Shown here: positions 8,210 to 60,703 of the stretch, piece after piece | Numbering within the stretch: position 1 is the stretch's first letter | Layout of the letters: every line of letters starts with the position of its first letter | Assembly: GCA_951799425.1 (NCBI GenBank) | Contig: OX637397.1 | Coordinates: 4,641,001-4,705,000 of the forward strand | Direction of reading: 5' to 3' | Length of the DNA: 64,000 bases | Source of the DNA: Ilex aquifolium | Lineage: Eukaryota > Streptophyta > Magnoliopsida > Aquifoliales > Aquifoliaceae | Made by a program: the position numbers and the translations under genes | The notes under the pieces: generated by a model | Databases searched by the model: none | The model's input: only the letters and a program-made list of their open reading frames with translations | What the model was told of the DNA's origin: nothing

Positions 8210-9310
8210 TCACACTACCACCATTGTCGCTACCCCACCCCATCTCTACCACAACAACCACTCCCGCCACCACCCCACCACCACCACCACCACCACCACT
8301 GTCGTTGCCGCCACCCCACCACCACCACCACACCCACCGCCCCACCATCTCCATCACCATTACCACCACCACCACTATCGTCACCCTACTACCATCACCA
8401 CTATTGTCACCCTACCACCACCACCATCGTTGTCACCACTATCACCAACACCGTTGTCACCACCACTACCACCACTACCGTCTTCACCCCACCACCACCT
8501 CTGTCACAACAACCACCACTACTACTGTCACCCCACCATCACCATTGCTGTCGTCACCCTACTACCACCGCCACTGTTCCACCATTACTCTTACCAGCAC
8601 AACCCTCATCATCGCCGCCGCCATAGCCACTGGCCCACGCCACCCCCACAACCACTATCGCCACTCACCACTGATTGCTACCACCGTCATCCACCGCCAC
8701 TACCCACCACCATCGTCACCTCATTTTTATATTTATTACCACTACCACTGTCGCTCATTGTTAGCACTCACCGCCACCATTGTTGCCCACCACCACCTAC
8801 TACCATAACCCACCACCACCCATCATCGTCCACCATCGCCACCAGCCACTGTCACTCACCGCCATCCGTTGTCGTCAACCACTGTCACCTACCCCCACCA
8901 CACCTGCCACCACCACCCGTCATCGCCCACCACTATCGTCACCTACTATCACCCATCCCCATCACACCTACCATCACCACTACCATTGGCCACCATCCAT
9001 CACGCTGTCGCCTAGAAGCACTCGTAGTCGTCCACCACCACCATCGTCACCGCCCACCACCATAACCCACCACCGCCACCACCAGCGTCGTCGCCCCACC
9101 ACCACCACTATCAACCACCATCACCGTCGCCTATCACCACCCATACCCACCACCATCACTATTATCACCTATGGCTGTCACTACCACAATCGTCACCTAA
9201 AAACACCACCATCATCGCCGTTGCCACCCATGGCTGCCACCACCACCACAATCCTCGCCACCCACCACAACCTTCACGGTCTCCCACCACTACCATTCTC
9301 TCCTCTATGT
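8210..9310. repeat. 1.1 kb degenerate CCA/CAC-type trinucleotide repeat tract
   Basis: About 1.1 kb is made almost only of CCACCA-, CCACCATCA- and CCGTCACC-type words. All three plus frames stay open for long stretches, giving His/Pro/Thr- or Ser/Pro-rich translations. This follows from low sequence complexity and is not evidence of genes. The minus strand is (TGG)n-like with frequent GG pairs and could form G-quadruplexes. It is flanked by AT-rich DNA. Confidence 0.9.
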
Positions 9311-9373
9311 TTGTGATTTGATTTTGGGTGTGAATACAAATATGTTTATTGTTGACCATTTTTTTTATTATTG

Positions 9374-9401
9374 CGTGTCTTCAAGCACATGTAATAACTA
9401 G
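9374..9401 (+). mobile_element. Degenerate Helitron 3' end
   Basis: GTGTCTTCAAGCAC, an imperfect hairpin, is followed by ATGTAATAACTAG and then T. This parallels the clear Helitron terminus at 16288-16315 (hairpin, short spacer, CTAG, then T). The matching 5' end was not found. Confidence 0.45.
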
Positions 9402-9944
9402 TATATATATATATATATATCATATTAGCTATTTTTTAGATATAGTTTATTGTGTCCACCCTTAGAATTTGTCTTGATTTACAAACTTGTGTGTTCTTTT
9501 GGTTTTTTTTTTTTAAATTTAAAGGTAAAATTACTTGCAATTGATCTCTATTTTTTTTACAACTGATGATTGATTTATTTCTATTAGATAGAAATGGTAT
9601 TATTATACTTACTTCTTGAATTTTTTTTTGAGAGAGTTTTGGGATTTTGATATAAAATATGAAAACTTGTACTAGGCCTCACATTTCGATGAGAGTTGTA
9701 ATTGATTCTTTTGTTGGAGTATTTTCACAAAAAAATAAAATTTGTATGTAGATTATTTATATACCCATTATGTTATATTTACATTTGACCAATTTATGGT
9801 GAATTTTAGTGACCATAAGTTACATATACTATATTCATTGTGAGAATTATTTAATGAGCATTATATTCTATTTATTTGGTCAATAAATTACTAAGACCAA
9901 AATAATTGATTTTTATGATGAGTTAATAAGTTAATTATTTTAAG

Positions 9945-10968
9945 TCAGGGGAGATAAATTCAAGTTGGCGAAGGTATTAAGATGACGAAGGAAAACAACC
10001 ATTTGGGTTTCGAAGGTATTAAGGTTTTTATTATTATTTTCCCTTCATTTTATGTGAGGGAGGATAAATTCAAGTTGACAGCTCTTTCTTGATTGGTATG
10101 TTTGGAGGAATAATTCCACAGAATATGGTGATTGCGTGTTTGGAAGGGAAACCACTGATCACGTGGGTATGTTTGGAGGAATAATTCCATGGTGATTGCG
10201 TGTTTGGAAGGGAAATCACTTATCACACAGGTCAAGTGCCTTTTCAGGGGCAATTCCTCTTGGAACTTTTGGCAACTAAGAAAAAGACATGGAAATAATG
10301 GCATGGGAGACTTTCTTGCATGAGGGTTTTGTCTTACTCTTAATTGGAGGCAACTTGCATTTTCAAATGATGTGATTCAAGGAAGACTTCATTTCTTGGA
10401 ACGTCAAATAGAGAAAATACTGCTGTTGGAGGGAATTTCGGTTATCACAATTTGGGCTCTTCCAAATGTCTTGGAAAGAGAGATTTTTTGCGTGAGGTAA
10501 GGGAGATCCCGCAAGTATGGCAGCCTTGTTCTAATTTTCCTAGCTACATTCAGTGGTTGCCTGGTTGGTGGATATTTATTCTTGGATTAAAAATTTGCTT
10601 GATGGACAAAGGGTCCCACCAAGTTTGTTCCATCCGTATGCTTGGAATCCATGGGAATAAAGAATGAAATCATAAAGAAGTTTCATGGGTATCTTTTAGT
10701 GGAAAAGTGGTCCAACCACTTGTCGGTGAAGACCAAATTCACGTGGTCGCGGATAGGTTGGACATGGACATTATTTAAGGAGTGTGAAAACATCGAAAAG
10801 AAAAAAGGTAGACCATGTAGGAGGTGTATAACTTTTTTGAAGCAATTATTTCATTGCTTGTTTCGTTCGAATAATTTTATTAGTTATTTCCTATCATGTA
10901 AAAGGATAAGGTTTATGTCCTTCCCACTTTTTTATTTTGATTATTAATAAAATTTTGCCCCAAAAAAA
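9945..10968 (+). mobile_element. Retroposed sequence with poly(A) tail and 12 bp target duplication
   Basis: The 12-mer AATTATTTTAAG occurs at 9933-9944 and again at 10969-10980. Just before the second copy are an AATAAA signal (about 10945-10950) and an A run (10962-10970). This is the mark of target-primed retroposition, by a 5'-truncated LINE or a reverse-transcribed cellular RNA. The body has only short interrupted frames, such as 10452-10667 and 10642-10947, and I recognise no domain. A partial 70 bp tandem duplication lies at about 10097-10222. Confidence 0.7.
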
Positions 10969-11226
10969 AATTATTTTAAGGTAGGAGTTATATATTTCAT
11001 ATACTTATATCTAGGTTCTATTTTAACCCACATTGAGGGGGAACAAAGTTATCAATATCTCATGTCTTTTTCAACTATTTTTTGTGTGTAAGTTATATTA
11101 TATTTTTAGGCAAAGAAAAGTGTGTAAAATTTCTATTTTTTAAGGTGTGTGTAGACTTAGAGAAATTACAGTGAGTAATTGGGATGTTGTATCCTAGAGG
11201 CAGCGTGTTGTATCCTGCTACACTGG

Positions 11227-11465
11227 AGAACCCTTTTTTGAAAATCGATTTTTAAGGGCGACTTCCACCATAGGTTCGTAACATTTGTATCAGAGTCCCA
11301 AAACACGTTAAATATGGGATCGGACTTGCAGCAGTTGTACGATCATTTTTGGGCAAGGGATAACCTATAGATTATATTAAAGTTACTGACCCATTTAGTG
11401 GGAAAGGGTCACTTGGACCTCGAATGAGGTACCACCCTTATGTGAAGTTGGAAGTTCCCCTTTTT
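11227..11465 (+). repeat. Dispersed repeat, copy 1 of 3 (probable LTR-element fragment)
   Basis: The same sequence is seen at 47592-47836 and, shortened, at 40277-40394. It contains TTTGTATCAGAGTCCC, which resembles the methionine-tRNA primer site context next to plant LTRs. It has no coding capacity and is an old fragment. Confidence 0.6.
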
Positions 11466-11870
11466 TAATTTTTTAATTTTATTGTCATAGTTATTAAAAT
11501 TTTTGAACTGTTTTAAATGGTCCTATTGCTCAATTTTATCAAAATAATTATTTTTAAAAAATTTTAAGAAATAAAATCACATAATTGGAAGTTGAGAGAC
11601 CAAAATCAATACATTGGAAAATGCTACTTGGACCTAATATGAAGACCTAATCTCGGGACCTAATTCACAACTAATCAAATGGTTCCAAAATTGGATTGAA
11701 AATGGGTTTCATCTAACTTTATAACTCACAACTAAACATGGTTGTATTGAATTAAGTCCCTAATTAGGTCCCCAAATAAAAACAAGAGAATTTAATCATT
11801 AATGATCGAGGGATTACGGTAAATCATTTTCCTACAACTGCATAGATATCCTCCCACTTTACGTTGCTGC
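11465..11870 (+). repeat. Orphan copy of an ankyrin-PGG intron 2
   Basis: It closely matches 49700-50090 in intron 2 of ankyrin-PGG gene 3, including the GATCGAGGGATTACGGTA phrase and the same MITE. No exon is attached. It marks a vanished gene copy upstream of gene 1. Confidence 0.7.
11627..11775. mobile_element. Small MITE inside the intron-2-like copy
   Basis: The ends are inverted: TTGGACCTAATATG at the left and TAATTAGGTCCCCAA at the right. The same element sits at 49828-49974, and a diverged one at 22561-22693. It is about 150 bp with no coding capacity. Confidence 0.6.
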
Positions 11871-12079
11871 CGAAGGGGGATTTCATATGAGAGAGTATAA
11901 ATATGGGGTCTTTTTTTGTCTTTTGGTACTCACAGAACACAGATGAAGCCGTCCCTCTCTTCTATTCTCTGTTGAATTAGCATGTTTGTTGGTGTCTATG
12001 TGTGACCAAAATCTAATTATTTCTCTCTTTTTTTCTTGCAACTCTTTCGAGACTTTGTCCAAGGTACTAACAAATTAAT

Positions 12080-12327
12080 GACATGTAGACAAGTCCAAAC
12101 AAAGTTGGGATAGGTTCAAAGTCGACCTCAAAAATAGGTTTATGTACAATCGACTTTGATTGGTAAAGTACAATTTATTCCATTCGGCTACTGTTAATCT
12201 ATGCAGTGAGTGAAATCCGTTACTTTTAGTGCATCCAGCCCATCCTTGGATGTTACTATGAACAGGATGGGTACCTACCTTATGCCTATTTAATGGTGCA
12301 TATATCTTGTAACATCACTCCTCCATA
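12080..12327 (+). promoter_or_regulatory. Proximal promoter of ankyrin-PGG gene 1, displaced from its gene
   Basis: This stretch matches the region directly upstream of genes 2 and 3. Shared phrases are GGATGTT-CCTATGAA-AGGATG, a TATA-like CTATTTAATG at 12286-12295, and TTGTAACATCACTCC. In gene 2 the TATA-like box lies 135 bp before the first ATG. Here it lies 4124 bp before the gene 1 ATG, but removing the 3988 bp Helitron leaves 136 bp. Confidence 0.75.
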
Positions 12328-12334
12328 TCTATAT

Positions 12335-12945
12335 AATAAGATAGAAGGGAAGTTGAATTTTATCCCTTCATAATTTCCCACCAAATCCCACTAGCTTCTC
12401 AACGTCCCTGACACGCACAGCCTCTAATGCCCACACGCCTGTCAGAACACACCCCCACTCTCTGTTATCCACCTCTATACGCTGAACACGCAAACCCCTC
12501 TCCCAAAAAAAAAAAAAAATTCTCTCCTCTCTCTCTCTGTGCAGAATTGAGCTCCGGCGAAAATCCACCGACTCACTGTCAAGTTAGTCTCTTTCTTTCA
12601 CCTCTATTCTTTTCTCTTTCTCTTTCTCTTCTCTGCTAATAAGATAGAAGGGAAGTTGAATTTTATCCCTTCATAATTTCCCACCAAATCCCACCAGCTT
12701 CTCAACGTCCCTGACACGCACAACCTCTAATGCCCACACGATTGTCAGAACACACCCCCACACCCCACTCTCTGTTATCCCCCTCTATACACTGAACACA
12801 CAAACCCCCCTCCCAAAAAAAAAAAAATTCTTTCCTCTCTCTCTCTCTGTGCAGAATTGAGTTCTGGAAAAATTCCACCGACTCACTCTCAGGTTAGTCT
12901 TTTTCTCTCCCCCTTATTCATTTCTCTTTCTCTTCTCTGCTCTCA
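12335..12945 (+). repeat. Two-copy tandem duplication, unit 303 bp
   Basis: TAATAAGATAGAAGGGAAG starts at 12334 and 12637. The copies run in parallel through an A run, a CTCTCT tract and GTGCAGAATTGAG. It forms the 5' end of the Helitron, so it is probably a duplicated Helitron terminus. Confidence 0.9.
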
Positions 12946-15497
12946 CACCACAACATACATCACACACCCAACCGCTTCTCTGCCCTCTCTATGCTCTCGC
13001 TCACTTCTCTCTCTCACTTCACAATCTGCTTCAGTTATTCCGTCATTCCTAATTTCTGACCATGATTCCGGTAATGTGTATGTGGCTTATACGGTTAGGT
13101 GAGTGTCACTCTCCCTCGGATATCATGCAAGAAATGGAAAAACGGGTGTGTGAATGAAATATGTGTGTGTGTACAAAAGTGCTTCCCAAACGTAGAGAGA
13201 CTCTCGAGTGTCATGTTTTACTTGGAATTGTTATTTAAAGGTCGTCTCCTCAGGGAAGGAAGGTGAATTATGTTGAAGGTGATTTTGGTAAAAAAAGAAA
13301 AAGTGTAAAATCTTTTGAGTTTGAGTTTTGATGAGTGAAGTTTGTGATAGAAAATGCAGTGGAAACAAGTGTTGACTAATCCAAAGAGGTCATTCCAATG
13401 GGAATGCTAAATCAACTCAAAACATTCTTCTAATGGTGCATAGATGTTCGATTAATTCGTAGGAAGCGAGGGACTAAATGAAAGTGTAGACTCAAGCATA
13501 CCCCGTGACAAGTCTACGGTGTATCAAGAGCTTACAACCATGTCCACACTCAACTTAGTCAAACCAAACCATCTCACACTACAAGGAGGAATGAAGAAAA
13601 GTGAATTTATCATACACAAGAGGAATTCTCCCTTGGATTAGCCAACTTAAAGTTTAGCTACTCATGTTAAATGTAAAGACATACAATGTGTAAAGAGACA
13701 TGGTATTGAAATGGAAGTTAAACTTGTATTAAAGTGAAGAGAAGTGAAACTATGTTTCTCTTTGATGGGATTTATTTCATAGGATTCTCTTGAATTTTAA
13801 TTGATTCTTTCTCTAAATTTTAATTGATTTACACTTTGTTTGATTTTTTCAATTTTATGTGGGGCTAGTTTAGGTTCAATCTTATGCGAATTTTGTAATT
13901 ATGTTAGATTCAATTTGATGCAAATTTTATAATTAGATTAGGTACTCGAGCAAGCCCTCAAATGCATTTTTGTGATTCCTCTGCAATGTATTACATTGCC
14001 GCCTCTTATTGTTGGTTTGCACTACAATCTTATTGTGTGTTTATTGGCTCATTGCCGTTACTTGGATCGAATAGATTTTTTTATTGGGAGGCGCATGTAG
14101 CATATTTGTTGACTTTCATTCACACAGAGTAACAAATATACCGAATTGGACATTGAGGCAACACAAACTTCACAGATTCACAATCAGACACATTTTTTTT
14201 TTTGAATTCATTTTTGAGATTAATTGTTTGTATGTAAGTATGTGTGAGTGGATTGCTAGGTCGGTTGAATTAGTGGTACATTGAGAATCTAAACAACACA
14301 AATGAGTGTATATAGAAGTTAAATGACCCATATCGAGTGTGCTTTCTTTATGGTTCTTCCAATCCTGTTATTGGTTTTTATTGTGCATTGTTCTTTCGAT
14401 CCTTTTATTGGTTTTTACTGCACCGGCACACGTCTACAATTTTGTTATTATTTGTCTATCACTACTGACTTTTGGTGTGTTTTATGGTGATAGTCAACGG
14501 AAATATCAGAGAGGAGATGAAATTGCTTAGTATGCAAATGTAGAAAAAATATAATTGTGCGGAATGAGTATAACTTGGTGAATGCTTGATGTATTTGGTA
14601 AATTCTAGGCCTTTTGATTTAACATCTTAGTCCTATTCTGGTGTGATTTTGCTCAATATGAGATTGCCTAAATACAGTTTAGAGTTTAAAATTGAAGTGA
14701 GTATGCCTTTAACTAATGTATTAGCATTCTATTTACAATTTACACTTATATTGGCTCATTGACCCCTTTTAATTACTAAATTTTATTTTTCTATTAGTGT
14801 TAGTTCTTATTACTACTTGTTAAGTTTCTTTTATTTGGTTTGTCATTACTTTCAAACCTATCATTTTTTTTTCTTTTACTTTTATTTCTCTTGCATATCA
14901 TATGTCTGGTTATTTTTGCACCTTGATACTTCACTGTTTTGTTGGTAGTGAGGTTGGATCATCAGTAGTTATTAGTGCTAGAGGTGGGACATTCACGATT
15001 TGTTTTTAATGTCAATCACTGCCATGTTATTTGATGATTTGTCAGTTGATTGATATTTGATTAGTTTAATCTTTAATTAGTTATTTTATGTTGGTTTATC
15101 CATGTAGTTTGAACTTTATTTAGTTTAGCATTCACTAGGACTTGATTTCCTATTAGTGTATTCCTTTTGCATAGCATGTGTACATTGCCCAGCATTTGTT
15201 AGTTGATAGATTGTTTTTCATCTAATAGGTCCCGTGGTTGAAGAAATGTTTCATTGGTAAATTTTTGCACCCTTCCACTATATTTCTTGCAACTGAGTGG
15301 TAACTCATTGTCATGTGCTTGCAATACATAACCAGTGACGCCTTCTAATGTGTCCCTTTAAGTTTATTTCCAGTATACATTTCTTTTTAAAATTTCCACG
15401 GGCCAGATTGTTGCATTTAGTGTCCATGAAAAAAGAATGAGATGAAAACACTGGATAGTAATATGCTAGAGTATACCCTGAGGCGTGAGTTGTAATG

Positions 15498-15630
15498 GAC
15501 GTTGAAAGGGCTCTGCATTAAAATTTCATGCCAAAATGATTTATTTGATGTTTGGGTTTGGGTCGATTCCTTTGATAGATATAACACAAATTTATAATAG
15601 GGACTTCAAATGAGGAGCCCTTTCAACGTC
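15498..15630. repeat. Hairpin element with perfect 16 bp inverted repeats
   Basis: GACGTTGAAAGGGCTC at 15498-15513 is the exact reverse complement of 15615-15630. This is MITE-like structure nested in the Helitron. Confidence 0.6.
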
Positions 15631-16409
15631 AAGTAATTTTGTGTTAATTGTGTGTTGTATTATAAACTAAGATTCTTATTATTGATAGAACTAACTTTTA
15701 TGTTGAATATTGAAGGTGGTAGCTACCAATTTTTTGCACAGAATCTTAAAATTAAGGGACATTTTTGGAGGTATTTTTTAATATTGCATTGTTCTTTTTT
15801 TATGCTTCTCCATAATATTGTGAGCTTTCTACAGACTTCTAGAATTTTTGTTGGGTTCTATTCGTTTGAACTGGTAATTGGATTGACAGAGAAAGTGATA
15901 AAGTACTACAGTGTGAATTTGTTGTAACCAATAGCTTATTTATATTTGTTATGTGATTTGAAGAAATTTATGTTTGCTATTCTAATATTAGTGTGAATAA
16001 TGTGTTTTCCTTCTACCCATTAATATCTTTGCCTCTATGTAAATGGGTTACAGTTGCATTCATGTATTTGTTTGATTTCTCATGTATGAGTTATAGTTGT
16101 TCAATGAATCTATATAAATGATGCCACAAATTAATTCTTTCTTTTTTTATTTTTTAATTTGCAGTTTTTTTATTACAATGTCAGTGTCTTAAGGATGTAG
16201 TTTAGACTTTCATTTTAGTGCATATCTATGTTCAATACTTGATTTTTTGTGTCCACGATTAATATTTGATTTTTTTTTGAATTGCGCAGTGCCTTCAGGC
16301 ACGGGTTATCACTAGTAGTTCTATAATTTTGAATACTTGAGAGAAAGAAGTAGGCCCTTCACTAGCAAAAGAAAGATCTATCTGCATCTAGCAGTTGCAT
16401 ACTATCCAC

Positions 16410-19400
16410 ATGGATCCTAAATTGTGCATTGCTGCCGAATCCGACAACATTCATGTTCTGGTGCAAAACAAGGAAAAACTTGTGGTGGAATTGACTCCAC
16501 ACCAGAATACTGTTCTCCACATTGCATCCCAACAGGGTCACACAAAATGTGTATCGAAGATCCTATCAATGCATCCATCGCTATTACATTGCGTGAATTC
16601 AAGTGGCGAGTCTGCACTTCATCTTGCTGCAAGGAATGGAAAGAAAAATGTAGTCATGGCACTCATTCGATTTGCAACATCAAATGGTGGTGCAAGGCTT
16701 GAAAGTGGAGTTGAAGCAGCCAAGGAGATGTTGAGAATGACAAACGAGGATGGAGACACAGCCTTGCACCAAGCTGTTCGATATAATCAGTTGCATGTGA
16801 TTGAGATTTTAACAAAAGAAGATTATGAGTATTCATATACTGCCAATAAAGCCGAGGAGACCCCACTTTATATTGCTGCAGAGAGGGGATATTTTAACTT
16901 GATTGAAGTGATCTTGGAATCATGCACATCACCAGCTTATGATGGCCCATGTGGTAGTACAGCTTTACACGCCGCAGTACTCTCCAAAAGCAAAGGTACA
17001 AAGTTCTGCATCATTATTATTTACTCCTAATGATATAATTCGCAAAATTTCAGGCCAACTTTTACTTCAAAAATGATGTGGTTATTAGCCATTCAATATT
17101 CTTGTGCCCCTTGTTTGTTAGAAGGGATAATGCCAACTCATTTGGGAATTAATAAAGTTTCGAGTTTAAAGTTGGGTAGTATAAGAATGTTGATTATCTA
17201 CTCGTTGGATGTTACAAAAGAGAAGAATTGAACACCCAAAGTCGAACACAATTGTCACTAAGCAATAATTATTAATGCATCTAGGAACATAGAGAGAGGC
17301 AATCGCCAACAGAGAAAGGCGTAGAGCGAGAGGACGAAGGTTTCGGAATTTTTTTTGCTATTGCATAAAATATGTTAAGAGTTTGTTTGGTTAGCGTCAA
17401 AACATTGGAAAGTATAAGAAAATAAAAAAAAAAAAAAAAAAACAACTTCTTCTTTGTTTGATTAGCCCGAAAGTACAATTGCTCGAGAAATTTTGTTTTT
17501 CTTCAAGTGTCAAATTTTCTTGTAAACATCTACTTTGGTTTCCCACAAATTGTGCAAGAAATTTTTTGTTTCCCGTGAAAGTTTCCTTATTTTCCTGTTT
17601 TGCCCACTTACCCTTTCTCCATTAGATTGATATGATAAGGATAATTTAGTCCTTGCATCAATTTTTCTAAGAAACTTTTCATTCTAGTAAAACGCATACA
17701 AGAAAATAAATTTTCCTTTCCATTTTTTTTTTTTTCCACTTCACTTTCTACCATTTTCATTTTTCATCATCAATTTCTTTCTAACCAAGAATCACCTAGA
17801 GGAACCGAATCTTTTGAATGCTTCTTTGGAGGAGCATTTGAAAAAATAGAAAGTATTTTCGGTCCGTATGAATGCCTATTTTGATTAGTTGCAATAGTGG
17901 AGAACTATCCCAAATACAAATCCTTTGGACTCATGGCTACAACCAAAGTTTGAAAGTACGGTAATATCCACAATCATGCACATCTGCTAATCTGGGATTG
18001 TTTTGCAAGAGTCGATCTTGTGATTACTTTCCCAAAAAAATCAATAAAACCTTCTCCACAATACTTGAGGCAGCTATGTGAAACTTGATTTGTCATTTTG
18101 ACTGCCTAAGGTTCAACTGCAGGCTATTAATTTCTTTTTTTAAAACTTCAGATTGATTTTGATTTTTTTTTTCTATGCCATTTTGCTAACATGTGTATTA
18201 TTTCATCTTTATTCTCACCAACTTCCCCAGCTTGTACACAAAAATTGTTGGATTGGAAGAGCTCTCTAGTCAAGAAAACGGATGAAAAAGGATCGAGTCC
18301 GCTACATTATGCTGCATTGAGTGGATTTTCTTTTGGGACATCTCAGCTATTAGATGTAGATAATTCCATTGCATACATTTCAAACAATGACAACAAAACA
18401 GCTCTTCATATAGCAATTATTGGAGGTCGTTATTCTGTCGTTAAAGAACTCATGTCGCACTCTCCAGATTGCTGGGAAATTATGAATGGCAAGAGACAAA
18501 ATATACTTCACATTGCATTGGAGTATAATAGGAAGGACATAATCGAATATATCTTACAAAACAGCAGAGCAATCAGCACTCTCATAACACAGAAAGACAT
18601 TGATGGCAACACACCTCTCCATTTCTTAGCCGCTTCTGAATTCTACATGCCTACTAAGCTCATAAGGCATCCTATGGCGGATAAGAAGGCCTTAAACAAG
18701 GAAAAGTTGACTCCGTTGGACATGACAACGGACATATTCAGTCCTAATCGGGTAAGATGCCTGACATTTTCCTATTATTTAAGGAGTTATCATGATATGC
18801 CACTCAGGACTTTGAAGTATACATTGAGTCTTACTTTTGTCTCTCAAATTTTTAACTTTATTGTTTTAATTATTTTTGTAATTTATTTTTAAATGGACTT
18901 ATTTAGACCTGTCAATAGAGTGGATTTTGATTCAACTTCAAATCTATTTAATCGGATATGCATTAATATTTTAATATGTCTACTCGAATCCGATTAAGTT
19001 TCTTTAAAAGGATTTGGATTTGGATACATGTAAATCTGATCCGATATATATATATTTATATAAAATACATACATATTTAATTGAGAGACCATATTGTATA
19101 TGCATACATACTTAGTTAGATTATTAATGCTATTGACATGAAATTAAATAAAAAAATATTGAATTGAATGATTGATTGATTAAATTAGGTTGAAAGTTAA
19201 CATAAATTTGGTAAAATTATTAATTTTTTATGAAATTTTATTGGGATTCAAATTTTCATCGAGTAATTGGATTGAATATCCAAGTATGAATTAAGATTGT
19301 GTAATGGAAGTAGTTTTGATGATTATGATGATACTCTTGACAATGGACATGTTTTTTAATATTTAATTTTATCAGAGGGGACTGAGATATGCTGGTGGTA

Positions 19401-19987
19401 CTTTGAGCTTGCGGAAAAGGATCAGCATAATTAAAGATATGAGAAAGGGAACTATTGCAAACGAAGATCCGGCAATAGTTGCAGATAAACAGAAGGAAAC
19501 ACTAAAACATTTCAAGAAAGGATTGAATACTAGTGTGATAGTGGCTGCACTCGTAGTCACCGTAACCTTCACAGCCGGATTCACCATGCCTGGTGGTTAC
19601 AATCAAAGTGGCGTTGAAAACCCAGTCCCTGGAATGGCAGTTCTCTCAAAAAGACGAGCTTTCCAGGCATTTGTCATATCAGATGCTATAGCCCTACTAT
19701 TCTCTTCAATAGCTATATTTCTCAACTTTTTGGCGGCATGGCAGCAACCCTTAAAAGTTGTGCAGATTCTTGCCATTGCCGCTGGGAATTTTGTTTGTGC
19801 CGCCATTATAGCGATGATGGTTGCATTTAGTACAGCGACTTATGTTGTGTTGGAACAATCACCAGCCCTTGCAGTCACCGCATGTGTTGTTGGTGTCCTA
19901 TCTTATCCCCTTTTTTACTTATTGGTCCGAGGACTTGATCGTATGGCAGGACTTGATAGTATAGCACGTAGGGCTTGGTTTGGTTAG
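16410..19987 (+). CDS. Ankyrin-repeat/PGG-domain membrane protein (ACD6/ITN1-like), gene 1
   Basis: Three exons join in frame: 16410-16995, 18231-18751 and 19376-19987, giving 572 aa. Both introns are GT-AG (phases 1 and 0). The start is the ATG in CCACATGG, which begins MDPKLCIAA, the start shared with genes 2 and 4. About nine ankyrin units follow, seen as TVLHIAS, SALHLAA, TALHQAV, TPLYIAA, TALHAAV, SPLHYAA, TALHIAI, NILHIAL and TPLHFLA. The PGG signature MPGGYNQSG is at residues 440-448. Four hydrophobic segments lie at about 422-438, 468-488, 499-520 and 532-553. Family members are membrane proteins with a cytosolic ankyrin domain; ACD6 promotes salicylate-linked defence and ITN1 acts in salt/ABA responses. 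Two oddities: a Helitron separates the promoter from the ATG, and the last residues (AWFG) and stop lie in a MITE. The frame is intact, but expression is uncertain. Confidence 0.88.
17378..17790 (-). mobile_element. MITE copy A, in intron 1 of gene 1
   Basis: This is the reverse complement of 19972-20364 over almost its whole length, roughly 85-90% identical by eye. The ends resemble GTTTGGTTAG and CTAACCAAG. It contains a shared ACATCTACTTTGGTTTCC core. It is about 410 bp, non-coding and of unassigned superfamily. Confidence 0.75.
18900..19370 (+). other. Intron 2 of gene 1
   Basis: AT-rich intron with no further gene. It starts with text like that of the intron 1 starts of genes 2 and 4, which also contain ATCCGGAT/GATCCG-type words. 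Confidence 0.5.
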
Positions 19988-20364
19988 AAAGAAATTGATG
20001 ATGGAAAATGAAAAAGGTAGAAAGTGAAGTGAAATAAAGGAAATAGAAAGAAAAATTTATTTTCTTGTATGCGTTTGATTAGAATGAAAAGTTTTTTGGA
20101 AAATTGATGCAATGACTAAATTACTCTTATCATATTAATCGAATGGGGAAAAGGATAAGTGAGCAAAATAGGAAAAATAAGGCAACTTTCATGGGAAAAA
20201 AAATTTTCCCGCACAATTTATAGGAAACCAAAGTAGATGTTTACGGGAAAATTCGACACTTGAAGAAAAAAAAACTTTCTCGAGAAATTATACTTTCTAA
20301 CTAATCAAACAAAGAAAATTTTGGTTTTTTTTTCCTGCACTTTTCGGTGCTTTGTCGCTAAGCC
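19972..20364 (+). mobile_element. MITE copy B, overlapping the stop codon of gene 1
   Basis: It is inverted relative to copy A in intron 1. Its left end, GGCTTGGTTTGGTTAG, supplies the last codons (Ala-Trp-Phe-Gly) and the TAG stop of gene 1 at 19985-19987. The right end is near GCTAAGCC at 20357-20364. Target duplications were not resolved. Confidence 0.75.
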
Positions 20365-22560
20365 TAAGAGATTTTGACCTCCCACGATAATTTTCAGCCA
20401 AATTATGGTTGCTTTTCATCTTTTCTACTATTTTTAAACTTAGTTTTAAATTTATCGTTGTTTATATGAAAATGATTTCAAATACGTGTGCTTCTAATCT
20501 TTTTACTTTCAACAACGTTCGTTTAAATCACACTTTCATGCAACACGTACGATAAATTGAAAAATAAACTAAAAACAATCATAGAGTGATAATGCGGATT
20601 AAAAAACCAACGTAATTGCAGTAAAAAAACTCCACGAATGGGAATCACAAAAGAATAGTGATGTAGTACAGGTGGCGATAATTTTAGTACTTTATTTGCA
20701 CGTGGTTAATACTGTTCAAGTTGGAAATTCTAGAAGATTTTGTTTTATTTTCTAATTTAATTAGGAAATTTTATTTTATTTGGTTTCCTAATTTAATTAG
20801 GATTCTAGTTTCCTAACTAGTTGGTTTAGGGTTTCTACTACTATATCAACTTTTATAAACCTTAGGACAAAATAGTTTTGGATCATTAATAATATGAGGG
20901 AGTCTTCTCTCTTTTTTCAATTATTCTGGTATTCTTACGAATCAACAGATCAATTGAGTTCTAGGATTGATATTTTGTGAGAATCAACATGTTTAGAGTT
21001 AGATTTTAAATCGATATTTGTGCAAAAATCAGCAATTTAGTTTCATTCTATTTCTATATAATAAAGTACAAATGATTTCAAATTTCAAAAGACATAAAAA
21101 AATGACTTTTATTATTCGTCGTTTAGGGCGTTTTAAATTAATGGTTCAAATCATTCAGATCGCCACCATCACAAACATAGGCGTATTAAAGGCTGAAAAA
21201 TAATCACCTCATTTCTACTTAGGAGAAGTCTCAGAGTAGAATCCATTTCTCGATCATGTGCTAGACTTTGTGTTGGGCTGAGAATCGTCGATTTCTCGCT
21301 CCAAATCGACAGAAGAATGGACATGCATGTTATCTCTTTTTTTTGTTGAAAGAGCCTTCTTTTTGCTTTGTTTAGAGCAATGCTCCATCGATGACAAGAG
21401 TTGAGATTTGTCCGTCTTTGTTTTAGCACGGGTTATTGGGATTGACACTTCGGTCAGGTTTGCTGACTTGTCGGTGGGAAGAATCATGATATCTTTGGTT
21501 CGTTGTCATTGTTGTTAGACTTGTTGGATTTTTGACTTGAGAGATGAGAGGAAGAGAGTGTCCCACTAGGCGAGCCAGAAATATGTAATTGCAAATTTCG
21601 TGTGTAAAATAATACAAAAGTAATGTCAAATTACAATTGCTGAATTTCTTTGACTTGATCAAAAGTGGTGTTGTTTCTATTAGGCGTGCTTGTCACATGC
21701 ACAATCCTTTGATTCTAAATAGATTTGATGATAATGAGAGTTGGATCAACGTATTTCTCAATCTTCGATTTGATGAAACTTTGATATATTTGGTAAATAC
21801 GAGAGTTGGATCAGCGTATTTCTCATTCTTTGATTTGATGATGACTTTGATGAATCTCTTCATCGTTCTTCGTTTTGAATGATTTGAAGATGATTTGAAA
21901 GATCTTTTAAAGAAAGACCTTAGCAGTGTGCTCTTCTTTTTAGAAATGAACTTACAAGACTTCAATTGAAGGTAGACTCAAGTAGAGCTTCGCTTCTGAT
22001 CTTCCCTCCGTTGGCTTCTCCTTGGCCTCTTTCTTGGCTTCCATCTTCTTAGCTTCCCTCATACCCCTATTTATAATATTGAGAGTAGTTATCCATGTAA
22101 AGATATTTTACCTGAATATTTTGGGAGAGAGTCTAAATTTTCGCATAGGGTTCTAAGGAAATTGATGAAGTCTCTAGTAGTAAGGCCAAGGATGTTGGAG
22201 TTCAAGATGTGCATGCGGATGATTGTCGGAAATGGATACCAAAAATGTAAGTACCACATATTTAATGTTTTTTTTCTTTTTCAATTTGCCAATTTCCAAT
22301 TTCCAATTTCAGTATTTTTATAATATTTATTTGTTGTTTTTAACATTTATGTTCCCATGGTTGGCTATTCTTGTAAACAACACCTGAGGATTCAAAACTC
22401 AAGCGTCGTGGTGGTGTGGGGTTTTAAGTTAGATGTAGGTGGTGAAACTAGAAAAAGAAGATGAATAGGGTCGTGTTAAAGAACGGGTCGGGTGTGTAAG
22501 ACAAGGTAGGGTTTTGGGGATTCGAGGTTTTTTTATTATAATGTCTAGGAAAAATGCTAT
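20365..22560. other. Gene-free DNA, possible LTR relic at about 20711-20990
   Basis: I see no supported gene. About 20711-20990 begins TGTTCAAG and ends AATCAACA, with a leader-like CAACAGATCAATTGAG phrase. It could be an old LTR but shows no target duplication. About 21735-21850 contains two copies of a GAGAGTTGGATCA-CGTATTTCTC phrase. About 22140-22250 has an exon-like frame, noted under findings. Confidence 0.35.
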
Positions 22561-22693
22561 TTGTGCCTAATTTGAGAATCTAATCTGGGGGACCTAATTT
22601 AATGCAGACATTTGATTGAAAGTGGACTCCATTTAACATTGACTTACAACTAATCCAATTGTTACATTTAATTTGCTCTCTGATTAGATCCCT
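22561..22693. mobile_element. Diverged copy of the 150 bp MITE
   Basis: It shares ATCTAATCTGGGGGACCTAA and CTGATTAGATCCC with the elements at 11627-11775 and 49828-49974. Confidence 0.5.
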
Positions 22694-22979
22694 ATAACAT
22701 TTCTCAACGTCTAAAGTATGATTGGATAGGTGGGTGTGAGGGTTGGGTTTTAGGGTTTTGGAGAAGATTTTTTAGGAAAATTTGGAGGTCGGTCCCCCTA
22801 TATGGATTTAAGTCCGTCAAGAAAACTTATTTATCATGAAATTTGTTTTTTTTTTACCAGATTATTCCTTCCCTTTAGAAGTGAAGTAAAACTAAAAATT
22901 AAAAACTCCTAAGGAGTTTGACTAATATTAAATTTTTTTTTCTCTCATATGTATCTATATCTAGGTTAGGACTATATCT

Positions 22980-23370
22980 CTCTCATATATATAATAACAC
23001 TAAAAATAAAAAATAGTAACATTCAAATACAAAAAAAAAAGTATCATTAACATAAAAAATAATACAATTTAAACACACAAAAATAGTAACATTTAAACAT
23101 AAAAAAATAGAAACATTCAATATTAATATTTTAAAAAATAACAATAGTAATATGTTCAACAAAAATAGTAACATGCTTAACAAAAACAGTAACATGCTTA
23201 ATAAAAAAATAGCAATATGGAACATTGAACAAAATTGAAAATAAAAATAGTAGCATTCAAACTCATAACTAGAGGAAGAAGCCTCCAATTCTTTAGCATC
23301 CAAAAAAGTAACACTAAAAAAGTAATAACATGCGTAATAAAAAATAGTAACATGAAAAAAAATAATGATA
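22980..23370. repeat. AT-rich minisatellite with AAAAATAGTAACATT words
   Basis: Variants of AAAAATAGTAACATTCAAACA recur throughout at about 20-28 bp spacing. The minus strand reads as Phe/Leu-rich peptides, an effect of composition and not evidence of a gene. Confidence 0.75.
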
Positions 23371-24917
23371 TGTGTTAGTAAATTGCATTTTGAAATTGAT
23401 GTTACTGACCTGATGTTACTATGCTAACATCAAGTACTTGGTGTACACTGCCCATATTACTTTTTCAAAATTTCAAGCTCGTACTCCAATTTCAACCTTC
23501 ATCCCTTTCAAATTAGCTTCAAATCTCAAAAGCCGATTATTTAAATGTATATCAGACAAAATAATAACTAAAAATTTGAATTTGAAGTATTATGGAAAGC
23601 TTGTAATCGAAAATTACTACCGTAAATCAAACATTCCTATATTCAATCATTGACCTCCATATATAGCTCATTCTAGATAATGTCTTCAACTTTCCATAAC
23701 TGACCAAATTAACATTGTTAAGGGTATTTTTTAGATTAAAAAAAAAAAAGTGGACTTAACTCTTTACTAATAAGATTACTTACCCCTAAATAAGTTTTAT
23801 TGACGGACTCAAGTCATTATAAATCCATGTAAGAGGACTCAACCCTAATTTTCACAATTTGTTATTCCTGTCATAGTTGAATAGGCCAGAAGCAAGAAAG
23901 ACAAATCAGTTCAAATATTTTGGATAGGTAGGTTCGCTCCGATAAAAAATTTGTTGAAGTTGGATGGAAGGTGCACATTGAACGATATGAAGAATTTTAA
24001 GGATTCAATATAAATGAACTTTAATTTAGGGCTCAAGTGAAATGAGTGAAATATTTTAGAGTCATTTAGATCATTTACTAGACAATATTTTTTCAATCAC
24101 GACAGTGATAATTTGCGGTTCTTAGTGCCGTTAGTATATGTATCGCTTAAAACAAAAAAACAAAATTAAAATAAATGAAGAGATCTTATTAAATTATTAG
24201 CAATTATCTAGGCGTGGGCCTCTTAGTATATTTATCAAAAGGGAAGAAGCCGGTTCCCTTATTAACTTTTATTTGAGGTATAGTTTTCTTTCAAAAAAAT
24301 TTTGTAAAAAAGCCCACTTTGAATGAAAAAGTCGGTAGTACCCTTCAAGCATAAGTCTTGAACGCTCAAAACTTCAGTTTCCTAAAGAAATCAAACCACC
24401 AATCATCACTCTCTAAATCAACGCCAAAAACGGTGACCACTCCCCCTCAAAACAAGGACGCCGGATATATCTCTAAACGGATTTCACATTGATTTGTTTC
24501 TTTGAATTTTGAAGAAACAATCTCATTAATTTCGTTACTCCATATTTTTTTGGAATCATTAGCTTCATCATTGTGAAAAATTTGGCATCATAGAAGAGAT
24601 TGCATAGTCGTCTTGAAAAACTTTCGGGTTGAAGCTTCGATCGCAGAATAGTCGATAACACCCAGAATAGTTCATTCACAAAAAAATCGGTTATGAAAAC
24701 CCAAAAGATGTCTCTTTAAATCATGTCAACCGTTCTCCATTGCCCTTAAACACGTAATCACTTTGATCTTCAAATGGAAAGCCATTAATTTCGCTCATTC
24801 TAAATTTTTGAATCAAAACAAGATTTTCGGAATCATGATTTTTAAAATTTAGCATTGCTAAATTTTGTGATCTTTAAATAACAAATTTGAGTAACTTGTC
24901 ACATTTTTTTTTATATT
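23371..24917. other. Gene-free AT-rich DNA
   Basis: Only short incidental frames on both strands; nothing recognised. Confidence 0.4.
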
Positions 24918-25179
24918 CACTACATGAATTAGGGCCTTTTGAGACAAATTTTTTGTGGCAGTTGTGTTCACGGTCACAAAAAAACACATTCTAATGGGGT
25001 CTCAAAAAATCTTTGTGGCGACAATGACCCGTATCAAATAGTATTTAATATAGTAAATAAACATTTTGTGACAGTACTACCACCACAAAAACCTTTTTTT
25101 CTTCAAAACACGATTTTTTGTGATGGTGAACATAGCTGTCACAAAAAACTTGTCAGAAAAGGCCCTAATTCTTGTAATG
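24918..25179. mobile_element. CACTA-type MITE, 262 bp
   Basis: It starts CACTACATGAATTAGGGCC and ends GGCCCTAATTCTTGTAATG, so the terminal inverted repeats are about 20 bp with few mismatches. Inner TTTTTTGTGGCAG/CTGTCACAAAAAA words are also inverted. CACTA ends with a GGCCCTAATT and GTGRCAG interior are typical of short CACTA derivatives. The 3 bp flanks (ATT and ACT) do not fully match. Confidence 0.7.
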
Positions 25180-40103: not shown

Positions 40104-40995
40104 GAGTGCCAACTCTCTAGGAAAACAAGATTTAGTAAGAATAGTTGGTAAATGTAGCGAAGTTGATAAAACGACACAAATGGTACCGTAAGATCAGCTT
40201 TCCACTTTTTAGTTTGGACTAATTTTCATTGAGGTATGGTTATTATTCTATAAGAACCCTAAGGAAATTAAAGTTCTACGATCGTTTTTGGGCAAGGGAT
40301 AACCTATAGATTATATTAAAGTTGCTGACCCATTTAGTGGGAAAGGGTCACTTGGACCTCGAATGAGGTACCACTCTTATGTGAAGTTGGAAGTTTTTGT
40401 ATCTTTGTATTAATACCTTGTTAATTCAACAGTTTATCGTCGTAGCTTCAACAATACTAGATTACATAGCTCTTTAATTGATTGATGCTATAGTTGGCAA
40501 AGTGTTACCTTTACTTCAATTCATTCCTTGCTTCACTTACATACAATCCTTTTCTTCCCCTGTTGTGTTTGCTTTAACAAGAAAAAGTGAAAAGAGAATC
40601 ATCAAATACGTAAGCAATAAGAAATCCTTTACTTTCATTTCAAGTCATCCATTAATTTCAGTGTACTCAACCTAATTAGCAATGGATATTCCTATGATAA
40701 GAATAGGTACTTTGTGCCTATATAATGTTATGTATGTCTTGGTTGGTTTGCCTTGTCCATTCAATTCTTTTTTGTAACATCACTCCACGAGTCCCAACAG
40801 ATTGCTCCTTCATAGTAGTTGGACGGGCAAGAGTGCCAACTCTCTGGAGAAACAAGATTAGTAAGAATAGTTGGTAAATGTAGCGAAGTTGAAAAAACGA
40901 CACAAATGGTACCTAAGAACATCAACTTGCTATTTTTTAGTTTGGGCTAATTTTCATTGAGGTATGGTTATTATTCTACAAAAACCCTAATGATA
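40104..40995 (+). repeat. Orphan promoter segment between 165 bp direct repeats
   Basis: Bases 40104-40270 and 40830-40995 are direct repeats, sharing AGAGTGCCAACTCTCT and TTGGTAAATGTAGCGAAG. Between them, 40277-40394 is a dispersed LTR-like fragment and 40395-40830 matches the gene 3 upstream region (47836-48312). The match to gene 3 ends at GGGCAAGA, that is at the start codon. Confidence 0.75.
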
Positions 40996-43823: not shown

Positions 43824-44045
43824 TGTCATTTGGAATTGTTGAATTGCCATTTAGGATTGATTGAATTGCCATTTAGGATTGATTGAATTGCCATTTGGGA
43901 TTAAATTATCATTTGGAATTGATTGAATTGCCATTTGAGATTGATTGAATTGTCATTTAGGATTGATTGAATTGTTATTTAGGATTAAATTGCCATTTGG
44001 AATAGATTGAATTGTCATTTGGGATTGTTGAATTGCCATTTAGTC
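43824..44045. repeat. Minisatellite of ATTGCCATTTAGGATTGATTGA units
   Basis: About ten variants of this 22-bp-type unit run head to tail. Its right part is also the start of the first 720 bp repeat unit. Confidence 0.85.
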
Positions 44046-46816
44046 TCAATTTATTTTTTTGGCTAACAAGCTAATGAGTAGATTGAATGAGTTTGATGAT
44101 ATTTGATGGATTAATATGGCGTAATACTATTAAAAATGGTATCAAACATTGAAAAATAAATGATGTGTTGTATTGAAAATCATCGGATATGTATGAAAGT
44201 TGTTAGAGGCTCGAAAGCCAATGTGTGATTGGGTCACAAATGAGTTTTTTTTGTTAAGCAAGGGCCCCTGAAGTTTCATATTTAGTATAAAACTTGAAAT
44301 AGTTATTAAACATGTTTTTTGTTTTTATCCTCATAATTTGATAGACAAAAATGTCTCCCAAACATGTTTTTTGTTTCAATGTTTACCACAAAACAGAGAC
44401 AAAAATTATCTATGTTTTTAATTTTTTTGAAGATGCGAAAATAAAAACGTTACCAAACGACCCCAATGTTTTTCACCATCATCTCTCTCTTTTACCTATC
44501 TTTCTTCTTTCTTCTCTCTCGTTGATCAGGCGACTGCCCATCTCTCTCACCATGCTTCTCTCTCTTTTACCTCTCTCTCTGTCCGAAACCCCTACCACCT
44601 ACCCATTTCTCTCATCTTAAACTCCACTAAAGCAAAAAAAAAAAAAAGACATTTTTGAGATTGATTGAATTGTCATTTAGGATTGATTGAATTGTTATTT
44701 AGGATTAAATTGCCATTTGGAATAGATTGAATTGTCATTTGGGATTGTTGAATTGCCATTTAGTCTCAATTTATTTTTTTGGCTAACAAGCTAATGAGTA
44801 GATTGAATGAGTTTGATGATATTTGATGGATTAATATGGCGTAATACTATTAAAAATGGTATCAAACATTGAAAAATAAATGATGTGTTGTATTGAAAAT
44901 CATCGGATATGTATGAAAGTTGTTAGAGGCTCGAAAGCCAATGTGTGATTGGGTCACAAATGAGTTTTTTTTGTTAAGCAAGGGCCCCTGAAGTTTCATA
45001 TTTAGTATAAAACTTGAAATAGTTATTAAACATGTTTTTTGTTTTTATCCTCATAATTTGATAGACAAAAATGTCTCCCAAACATGTTTTTTGTTTCAAT
45101 GTTTACCACAAAACAGAGACAAAAATTATCTATGTTTTTAATTTTTTTGAAGATGCGAAAATAAAAACGTTACCAAACGACCCCAATGTTTTTCACCATC
45201 ATCTCTCTCTTTTACCTATCTTTCTTCTTTCTTCTCTCTCGTTGATCAGGCGACTGCCCATCTCTCTCACCATGCTTCTCTCTCTTTTACCTCTCTCTCT
45301 GTCCGAAACCCCTACCACCTACCCATTTCTCTCATCTTAAACTCCACTAAAGCAAAAAAAAAAAAAAGACATTTTTGAGATTGATTGAATTGTCATTTAG
45401 GATTGATTGAATTGTTATTTAGGATTAAATTGCCATTTGGAATAGATTGAATTGTCATTTGGGATTGTTGAATTGCCATTTAGTCTCAATTTATTTTTTT
45501 GGCTAACAAGCTAATGAGTAGATTGAATGAGTTTGATGATATTTGATGGATTAATATGGCGTAATACTATTAAAAATGGTATCAAACATTGAAAAATAAA
45601 TGATGTGTTGTATTGAAAATCATCGGATATGTATGAAAGTTGTTAGAGGCTCGAAAGCCAATGTGTGATTGGGTCACAAATGAGTTTTTTTTGTTAAGCA
45701 AGGGCCCCTGAAGTTTCATATTTAGTATAAAACTTGAAATAGTTATTAAACATGTTTTTTGTTTTTATCCTCATAATTTGATAGACAAAAATGTCTCCCA
45801 AACATGTTTTTTGTTTCAATGTTTACCACAAAACAGAGACAAAAATTATCTATGTTTTTAATTTTTTTGAAGATGCGAAAATAAAAACGTTACCAAACGA
45901 CCCCAATGTTTTTCACCATCATCTCTCTCTTTTACCTATCTTTCTTCTTTCTTCTCTCTCGTTGATCAGGCGACTGCCCATCTCTCTCACCATGCTTCTC
46001 TCTCTTTTACCTCTCTCTCTGTCCGAAACCCCTACCACCTACCCATTTCTCTCATCTTAAACTCCACTAAAGCAAAAAAAAAAAAAAGACATTTTTGAGA
46101 TTGATTGAATTGTCATTTAGGATTGATTGAATTGTTATTTAGGATTAAATTGCCATTTGGAATAGATTGAATTGTCATTTGGGATTGTTGAATTGCCATT
46201 TAGTCTCAATTTATTTTTTTGGCTAACAAGCTAATGAGTAGATTGAATGAGTTTGATGATATTTGATGGATTAATATGGCGTAATACTATTAAAAATGGT
46301 ATCAAACATTGAAAAATAAATGATGTGTTGTATTGAAAATCATCGGATATGTATGAAAGTTGTTAGAGGCTCGAAAGCCAATGTGTGATTGGGTCACAAA
46401 TGAGTTTTTTTTGTTAAGCAAGGGCCCCTGAAGTTTCATATTTAGTATAAAACTTGAAATAGTTATTAAACATGTTTTTTGTTTTTATCCTCATAATTTG
46501 ATAGACAAAAATGTCTCCCAAACATGTTTTTTGTTTCAATGTTTACCACAAAACAGAGACAAAAATTATCTATGTTTTTAATTTTTTTGAAGATGCGAAA
46601 ATAAAAACGTTACCAAACGACCCCAATGTTTTTCACCATCATCTCTCTCTTTTACCTATCTTTCTTCTTTCTTCTCTCTCGTTGATCAGGCGACTGCCCA
46701 TCTCTCTCACCATGCTTCTCTCTCTTTTACCTCTCTCTCTGTCCGAAACCCCTACCACCTACCCATTTCTCTCATCTTAAACTCCACTAAAGCAAAAAAA
46801 AAAAAAAGACATTTTT
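43934..46816 (+). repeat. Four tandem copies of a 720 bp unit, apparently identical
   Basis: The sequence repeats exactly every 720 bp: 43934-44653, 44654-45373, 45374-46093 and 46094-46813, then 3 more matching bases. I saw no difference between copies. Each unit holds minisatellite DNA, an AT-rich middle, a CT-rich stretch and an A run followed by GACATTTTT. Each has the same 89-codon open frame (first at 44351-44620), which has no recognisable domain and is probably incidental. Such identity means very recent amplification, gene conversion or an assembly artefact. Confidence 0.95.
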
Positions 46817-58300: not shown

Positions 58301-60197
58301 TGTGACATAATGTTATTGCAATGATACATCGCATTGCATATGCACGGGGAATTCACATAATGAGTGGTGTGTGTGTGTGCATGGTTGTTGTTAATACCAT
58401 ATGTTGGAATGTGGTAGAGACAGTTCATATGGCATTCATTACATATGAACCTTGCATGAGAGAAGCAATGGGTCATTACATTGCATATGTACGAGAACAT
58501 CACATACATGGACATTGTGTCATAAGGATGTTGTGCATGGGTGTTTGTACCACAATCTATGTGGTATTAAATGCATATGGTCATGGAAATTGCTCATTGG
58601 CATTATTGCATATAGAGCATGACATTGGTAACTCCATTCATGGACATTAGTCATTAGTGGAGGCATGTGTAGGTGGTGCATGGTTAATCAACACCTTGTT
58701 TGGTGCTTGATATGTGGACTCGGGAGAAAAGTGGATCGACGATCCTTTTTGAGTCGCATGGTTGCATTGCATAAGTAAAACTTGTGTCTGGGTATAGCAA
58801 GAAGGGGCATGGCGACTTCCTCGGGTGAAAGACCCGGAATCACTTGGTTCAGTCACTCCCCTGAGGTGAAATTCCGGAAAAGTGACATGGTGTACGGAAC
58901 CGGCGGTGTAATTCCAAAATCCGTTGCCCAACAAGACACAAGATTTTGATATAAAATATACTCATCCAATGAGTATCATATTTTCCGTCGAAGACGGGTT
59001 CATTACACATTGCATTGTGTTGTGGGAGTCGGGAAGGACTCGGGTTGTGTTACATGATTGAGTCTCATCTCACTCATAGCATGTGGTACACATTGGCATT
59101 CGCATTGTGTTGAGGAGCCAGGGAGGGCTCGGGTTGAGTACATAAGTCTCATCTCATTTCATGGGGCTTAGGTAGCCCGGTTTAACATACATGACATTGA
59201 CATGTAAAGGGAGTCAGAGTGGACTCGGGTTGAGTGCACATGGGTGGGTCTCACCTCATTCATGGCATGACATTATAGCATTACATCATTTAATTATATA
59301 TTATTTGATGGAATGGTTACGGATTTATAGATGTTGCATGTGAACATTTCATATACATATAGGCTGAGGAGTAGCCTCTGTAGGAAATACTCTACTGGGC
59401 GTTGGCTCACCCTATACGGGAACACATTTCAGGTGGGAGAGATACACCGGCGGATGGCTCCATTTTGGACCCTTGTGCTTGAAGAAAGCCGCATGTGGCT
59501 TTACTTAATGTTTTGTGTAATTACATGTTAGAAACTATATTTTGGGGCATGTAATGCGTAAAATAATTGTAATAGAACTTATAAAGACTATTGTTAGATT
59601 AGTCTTTCATGTTTTGATTTAAGTATGGTTAATTGGACCCAGTGTGGCCAATGTTTACTTATACATGGACCCGGTGCGGCCATTGCTTTATATTTGACCT
59701 CGGATGGGTCTGGTAATTGTGTATTGCACAGGTTGGGTATTGGGTAGAGCTCCCCATACAAAGGAGACTCTGCCCAAATTTTGTTAAGTTATGGACCCCG
59801 GTAAATGGGGCATAACAGTGTGATATCGAGATACTAGGTATCTGCAGGTATTCCGCGGGTTGATGGGTAATCAACGGACCCCTGGATTTAGGGGCGTCAC
59901 ATACGATGCCCAGATTGTCGTGAAATGATGAATGGTAAAAGACAAAATATTCTTCACATCGCACTGGAGCATGAAGACGAGAACATGGTACAATGCCTTT
60001 TAGATACCTTCAGAGGAACCTGCAACGATCTTGTAACACAGAAAGACGTAGATGGCAACACACCTCTCCATTTGATGGCTGCTTCCAATCTCAAAATACC
60101 TCAACTCATACATCATTTTATGGCGGATAAGGCAGCCTTAAACAAGCAAAATTGCACTCCCCTGGACATGGCACCTAGAAAACATGGTGATTTATGG
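55333..60197 (+). pseudogene. Ankyrin-PGG gene 4, exon 2 split by a solo LTR, PGG exon absent
   Basis: Exon 1 (55333-55936) is open, starts MDPELYRAAASGEIDVVVQN and ends in phase 1 at a GT donor, as in genes 1 and 2. Its ankyrin units include TVLHIAS, SALHPAA, TALHEAV, TPLYIAA and TALHGAV. Exon 2 starts at 56652 with ECIRTLVDWNKSLVKETDE and contains extra DNSIA-type repeats. It is interrupted at 56934 by an LTR insertion and resumes at 59909 with the MMNGKRQNILHIALEHEDE stretch, ending at a GTAAGA donor after 60197. Intron-2-like DNA continues to about 61145 and then stops matching; no PGG exon is found. The copy has lost its membrane part and is a pseudogene. Exon 1 alone could still be transcribed. 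Confidence 0.88.
56935..59901 (+). mobile_element. Solo LTR of about 2.97 kb (Gypsy, probably Tekay/Del-like) inside gene 4
   Basis: It begins TGAAACCCCGG and ends GGGGCGTCACA. TACGATG flanks both sides (56928-56934 and 59902-59908). It interrupts an ankyrin exon that is continuous in genes 1-3. I see one LTR and no internal genes, so it is a solo LTR fossil. A TATA-like TATAAATAGG is near 57319. Length and end motifs suit the long LTRs of Tekay/Del chromoviruses. The near-perfect flanks suggest moderate age. Confidence 0.75.
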
Positions 60198-60703
60198 GTA
60201 AGAATGCCAAACCTTTTTCTTATGTTTAAGGAGTTATGATGGTGATATATGTCATTCAATTAATAAAAAGAACGACGAAAAATTTACACTGATGTTGGTT
60301 TTCGAAGTATGCGTTCAGTTTCACTTTTGTCTCTTAATGTTTTAATTTTATGGTTCTAGTTCTTAAATTTTTTAATCTATTTTTAAATGGTCCTACTGCT
60401 CAATTTTGTCCAAATATAATTATTTTTTTAAAAAACTTTAAGGACTAAAATCACTGAATTAAAAGTTGAGGGACTAAAGCAAGAGTATGTGCATACTTCA
60501 CGGCCACCAACGTAGTTTACCCAAATTGAAAAAAAGAAAAAGAAAAAAGGAAGGGTTTAATCTCTAGTGATCAAGGGATTGGTCTATCTTTTGCTACAGC
60601 TGCATATATATCCTCCCGCTACATGGGGGTTCTTCCCCTCTTCCCTAATTTTTCATGGGACAAGAATATCCCAGGACTCCCATCTATCTTGATCTACTCT
60701 ATT

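Follow-up and report, generated by a model that had tools for sequence, protein, structure and literature searches.

A non-autonomous Helitron of 3,988 bp is inserted in front of gene 1, a predicted ankyrin/PGG gene of Ilex aquifolium, in the 64,000-nucleotide stretch of DNA analysed here (C7:4641001-4705000, hereafter the window; gene 1, the Helitron and their parts lie on its forward strand). The insertion point lies some 40 bp downstream of the first base of a TATA-like box, and the ATG (16410) follows 94 bp after the element. Because the box and the expected transcription start lie left of or at the insertion, the element is best called a 5' leader insertion and not a separation of gene and promoter; the core promoter of gene 1 is probably whole, with the Helitron sitting in its 5' leader. 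If gene 1 is expressed, a spliced chimeric leader is the likeliest route, and silencing of the gene is nearly as likely.

Ends and class of the element

The Helitron (12328-16315) begins with TC at 12328 and finishes with CTAG at 16312-16315. It is inserted between A and T, the flanks reading CTCCATA/TAGTTC, and a hairpin (GTGCC-TTCA-GGCAC, 16289-16302) stands 13 bases before its 3' end. There is no target-site duplication: three paralogs of this chromosome (L003/L033, L005 and L006/L007) have an uninterrupted CCATA/TAGTTC, in which the left flank to 12328 and the right flank from 16316 join at the identical base. The longest stretch between stop codons in any of the six frames is 123 codons, which leaves no RepHel of its own. 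The paralog sites, the family ends and the lack of a long reading frame identify the element as a non-autonomous Helitron; its identity and exact extent, as proposed in an earlier note on this DNA, are borne out by the TC/CTAG ends, the hairpin and the base-exact paralog sites. In all nine Helitron relatives whose match reaches the 3' end, the CTAG terminus is followed by differing flanks (matches breaking off before about 16305 were not counted). Five other loci have a related 5' end, of which L015 and L018 begin with TC, L013 and L012 match only from 12330, and L011 matches from 12345.

The 5' end of the Helitron holds a TATA-like string, TATATAATA (12330-12338), and similar 5' ends are found in L013, L015, L012 and L018. 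These first bases (12330) are the sole TATAWAW across 12200-12420 and 16260-16409. A tandem pair of 5' leader segments, the outer copy at 12334-12634 and the inner at 12637-12943, shares 88.7% identity. Further inside lies a fragment of another abundant repeat (13027-13752), which has at least 38 further copies at 87-91% and of which no copy was seen in the Helitron relatives on C4 and C9. Candidate autonomous partners exist in the genome, with at least 150 Helitron_like_N matches (150 of 204 candidates scored), none of these lying within the window. Neither of two possible sources of the leader gained support: an autonomous element, as none of the leader matches lay within 20 kb of one of these 150 matches (the nearest was about 22 kb away, on C4, judged by eye), and a captured host gene, as gene 1-like coding sequence was found by tblastn in none of 41 Helitron loci. 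Dating the Helitron through its relatives was dropped because the longest matches are only 90-93% alike.

Promoter and expected start site

The left flank (12080-12327) is a conserved promoter region of the gene family, with 91-97% identity to the paralogs L005, L033, L034 and L006/L007; a genome search with 12000-12340 gave 14 matches, 13 of them on C7 at 4.65-4.93 Mb, the window included. It carries the TATA-like box CTATTTAATG (12286-12295), which is present in gene 2 and, with one base changed, as CTATATAATG in gene 3. The motif TTGTAACATYACTCC (12307-12321) follows close to where transcription should begin; it is common to genes 2 and 3 and found four times in the window (12307, 33014, 40772 and 48253). 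The region 12080-12327 was aligned to the 500 bp upstream of each gene and compared with 300 dinucleotide shuffles. The scores of 84 for gene 2 (best shuffle 32) and 38 for gene 3 (best shuffle 30) exceed all shuffles, so the promoter similarity assumed in the earlier note is present. No similarity was seen upstream of gene 4 (score 23, best shuffle 29) or in the unrelated control stretch 60000-60499 (score 22, best shuffle 34). The box-to-ATG distances given before for the sequence without the Helitron were reproduced, with 136 bp in gene 1, 135 bp in gene 2 (ATG 33097; 171 bp to the ATG at 33133) and 114 bp in gene 3.

With the usual TATA-to-start spacing of 25-35 bp, transcription of gene 1 would be expected to start at about 12311-12330. 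The earlier note had held that the Helitron separated gene 1 from its own promoter. The element does stand between the family promoter and the ATG (box 12286-12295, ATG 16410), but in the literal sense the separation was rejected on the position of the box and the expected start, and the wording was an overstatement. A further promoter box, CTATATAATG, with a TTGTAACATYACTCC motif 54 bp on, is found at 40718-40786, away from the gene starts that were found, and is perhaps a gene relic.

Paralogs and relative age of the insertion

The uninterrupted site in three paralogs indicates that the order promoter-leader-ATG without the Helitron is ancestral. Exon 1 of gene 1 is 96.7% identical to that of the closest complete sister gene (ATG at C7:4757752) and 91-93% identical to L005, L033 and L034. 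Since the sister has the plain site, the Helitron insertion is younger than the split of the two genes. At L004/L034 a different transposon, some 1.1 kb long and bearing inverted ends plus a 10-bp direct repeat, ACTCCTCCAT, lies one base from the Helitron site; this transposon (L034 2570-3700, C7:4929 kb) is a second independent insertion at almost the same position. The complete sister gene has in its promoter an element of about 0.55 kb (L006 1705-2270, C7:4757 kb), which we take to be hAT-like from its 8-bp direct repeat, TATGCAGT. The homology of L033 and L034 skips from window 17882 to 20787, so that both are without exons 2 and 3, and an inverted repeat pair of gene 1 (17433-17788 and 19980-20333) lies at these breakpoints. 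A comparison of gene 1 with the sister over 16410-19900 gives 104 differences at 1629 exon sites and 62 at 1848 intron sites. The exons thus diverge more than the introns, exon 3 most (non-synonymous divergence, Ka, 0.127; synonymous divergence, Ks, 0.100), which may reflect diversifying selection or conversion with another paralog.

How gene 1 could be expressed

The earlier note offered three options for gene 1, namely a very long leader, splicing and a promoter inside the Helitron; they omit silence and initiation in the 94-bp remnant of the ancestral leader (16316-16409, where paralog alignments of 91-96% begin at 16316). Removal of the Helitron by splicing, to which we give somewhat less than an even chance, would proceed as follows. 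The native core promoter would still work, or would be aided by the TATA-like 5' end of the Helitron, and transcription would enter the Helitron 5' leader, which would end in a donor conserved in the family (12893). The remainder of the element would then be removed by splicing to a 3'-end acceptor, at either 16289 or the CTAG end at 16315, leaving the mRNA with a Helitron-derived leader a few hundred bases long rather than 4 kb. If transcription is taken to start at 12317, an unspliced leader holds 85 upstream ATGs, so such a message would hardly be translated; two spliced leaders (from 12892) hold 2 and 1, closed, and the ancestral leader holds 0.

The candidate donor, CAG/GTTAGT (12890-12898, GT at 12893-12894), lies inside a conserved block of about 20 bases, and AGGTTAGT is uninterrupted in 18 of 21 Helitron-family rows. 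The highest 8-base conservation in the aligned leader starts at 12891 and 12893 (0.987, against a mean of 0.79 for the other columns). This was calculated from 19 of the 21 rows, after dropping L067 (the second row of the C15 locus) and L075 (broken by an insertion); L071 was retained, and its 6 extra bases inside the donor are hidden by column counts. The leader matches in the genome number 25, including 4 from the window itself and its second copy. The candidate acceptor, a T tract with GAATTGCGCAG (16271-16289, AG at 16288-16289), keeps its AG in 7 of 9 relatives, and the CTAG end is also a possible acceptor by comparison with a transgenic maize Helitron (PMC10095026). In the maize C1 promoter with HelA2, transcripts from rapid amplification of cDNA ends begin upstream of or in the left end of the Helitron and are spliced to the CTAG, according to that report (PMC10095026).

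A number of observations weigh against a spliced leader. The conserved block is wider than the donor, 8-base means being above 0.94 from about 12885 to 12905, and the outer leader copy has a weaker donor, CAA/GTTAGT. The TATA-like string belongs to the Helitron end and the AG adjoins the hairpin, so the conservation of both may reflect a need for transposition; as the Helitron-family rows are also related to one another, the conservation of donor and acceptor is support and not proof. The maize precedent is not exact, because the promoter insertions there lay on the upstream side of the TATA box and, at the HelA2 site, Helitrons other than HelA2 gave mainly the normal C1 5' end (PMC10095026). 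The coding sequence of gene 1 points the same way. Its branch has 25 non-synonymous and 5 synonymous changes, compared with 21 and 14 on the sister branch (Fisher p 0.056), with 34 of the 99 counted gene 1-sister differences left unassigned to a branch. Given 1255 non-synonymous and 368 synonymous sites, the gene-1 ratio is about that expected without selection, and the substitutions on this branch look neutral; between gene 1 and the sister, Ka/Ks is 0.92 overall. The second copy of gene 1 described below departs from the first at three exon positions (16678, 16800 and 19835), and each of these differences changes the protein. Finally, near the Helitron, 11 of the 15 C>T/G>A changes on the gene-1 branch are at CG/CHG, compared with 22% of C/G sites (p 4e-5, in a test chosen after the data had been seen), while the sister branch has 2 of 6 there.

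These last results would be understood if the Helitron had silenced gene 1, transposon-type methylation closing the promoter and the open frame reflecting the short time since insertion, a rival that we consider plausible although not our first choice. The near-neutral branch agrees with it. The earlier note had stressed that gene 1 is nonetheless fully open, and its frame of 572 aa is indeed open. However, this is weak evidence of function, as the chance of meeting no stop in 47 random substitutions (the 30 of the gene-1 branch and half of the 34 unassigned) is 0.17. In favour of function, the corresponding chance is 0.02 for the 104 substitutions over both branches, and indels between gene 1 and the sister number 1 in exons (in-frame) and 6 in introns, neither figure being assignable to the time after insertion. 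The CG/CHG excess downstream of the Helitron would fit methylation and silencing, but at the scale of the whole gene it is not specific to gene 1 (33 of 55 changes on the gene-1 branch, 20 of 37 on the sister branch, p 0.67), and the footprint therefore counts as no more than a hint. Among the 4 gene-1 changes in 12050-12327, C>T and G>A are both absent, and neither copy of gene 1 has a stop or frameshift, which also speaks against silencing. Promoter Helitrons have been linked to such outcomes: published reports attribute loss of function to the natural 3.6-kb Helitron in the BnSP11-1 promoter (PMC5030654) and hold that the rice MYB61 promoter Helitron compromises transcription (PMC7566476). 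A strand bias was also seen in 16316-17800, with 12 G>A and 3 C>T on the gene-1 branch and 0 and 6 on the sister branch.

Initiation at the 3' end of the Helitron or in the 94-bp remnant, giving gene 1 a short leader, appears unlikely. It would escape the 85 upstream ATGs, and single maize transcripts starting 14 bp and 67 bp upstream of the Helitron CTAG are described in PMC10095026. However, there is no TATAWAW in 16260-16409, and the remnant, with 6 changes gained on the gene-1 branch against 2 on that of the sister, shows no visible constraint. It is most improbable that the Helitron, or the second copy of the gene, is an assembly or haplotype artefact. Gene 1 and the Helitron do recur 64.1 kb off (C7:4714125 onwards), about 99.9% identical over at least window 9000-25000, as uncollapsed haplotypes can produce, and this copy may be either a recent duplication or an uncollapsed haplotype. 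Still, the full Helitron anatomy at a base-exact site is not expected from an assembly error, and over 9.2 kb the copies are told apart by 6 mismatches and 1 gap.

Gene 1 and other features of the window

Gene 1 (16410-19987) has exons at 16410-16995, 18231-18751 and 19376-19987, separated by GT-AG introns. Its predicted protein contains Ank_2 (1.8e-48) followed by PGG (1.9e-25), both above the Pfam cut-offs, and by these domains belongs to the ankyrin/PGG family, for which we take ACD6 and ITN1 to be the familiar names. The label 'defence-type' used for gene 1 in the earlier note thus denotes a family resemblance (ankyrin plus PGG) only. Elsewhere in the window, 43934-46393 is a tandem array with four identical 300-bp stretches at 720-bp spacing.

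Relation to known systems and significance

Natural promoter Helitrons that affect genes have been reported (PMC5030654; PMC7566476), so the kind of event is already known. The Helitron of BnSP11-1 in Brassica napus is non-autonomous, 3.6 kb long and absent from the progenitor haplotype, and is reported to disrupt an enhancer and a cis-element (PMC5030654); it resembles ours as an element of similar kind in the promoter region of a gene, whereas our element lies some 40 bp beyond the start of the box, in the expected leader. Similarly, the rice MYB61 Helitron is a natural insertion in a promoter, carried by some lineages and lacking in others; it is polymorphic between rice lineages and stands beside a GRF4 binding site (PMC7566476), whereas the plain sites here are in paralogs. 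The maize C1 insertions lie 47-93 bp before the ATG and one Helitron gives chimeric leaders spliced to CTAG (PMC10095026), as would be the case here. However, that system is transgenic, while the present insertion is natural, past the box, and of an element with a family-conserved leader donor. ACD6, an Arabidopsis ankyrin/transmembrane defence regulator, shares ankyrin repeats, a membrane domain and a copy-number-variable locus with the present case, a comparison that for gene 1 is one of domain resemblance (PMC6168153). A literature search found no paper on a Helitron insertion upstream of an ankyrin-repeat defence gene, which does not prove absence from print. The features that lift this case above the average are the base-exact site, the presence of sister copies within a single genome and the donor conserved in the Helitron family.

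The locus offers a ready-made comparison within one genome: two gene copies bear a Helitron in the 5' leader, and a complete sister with 96.7% identity in exon 1 has none. Its RNA would show directly if an insertion of 4 kb in the leader is removed by splicing, takes the place of the promoter or shuts the gene down. Because the donor is conserved in the Helitron family, it also yields a general prediction for other leader insertions. The family may carry a portable 5' leader, consisting of a TATA-like start, an untranslated exon with a conserved donor and a 3' acceptor, that is, a leader replacement which splices itself out on landing; we regard this as a doubtful extension of the spliced leader proposed for gene 1. 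If it were true, a copy landing in a 5' leader would replace that leader rather than destroy the gene, and gene 1 would be a case of natural rewiring, an ankyrin/PGG gene retained as two copies.

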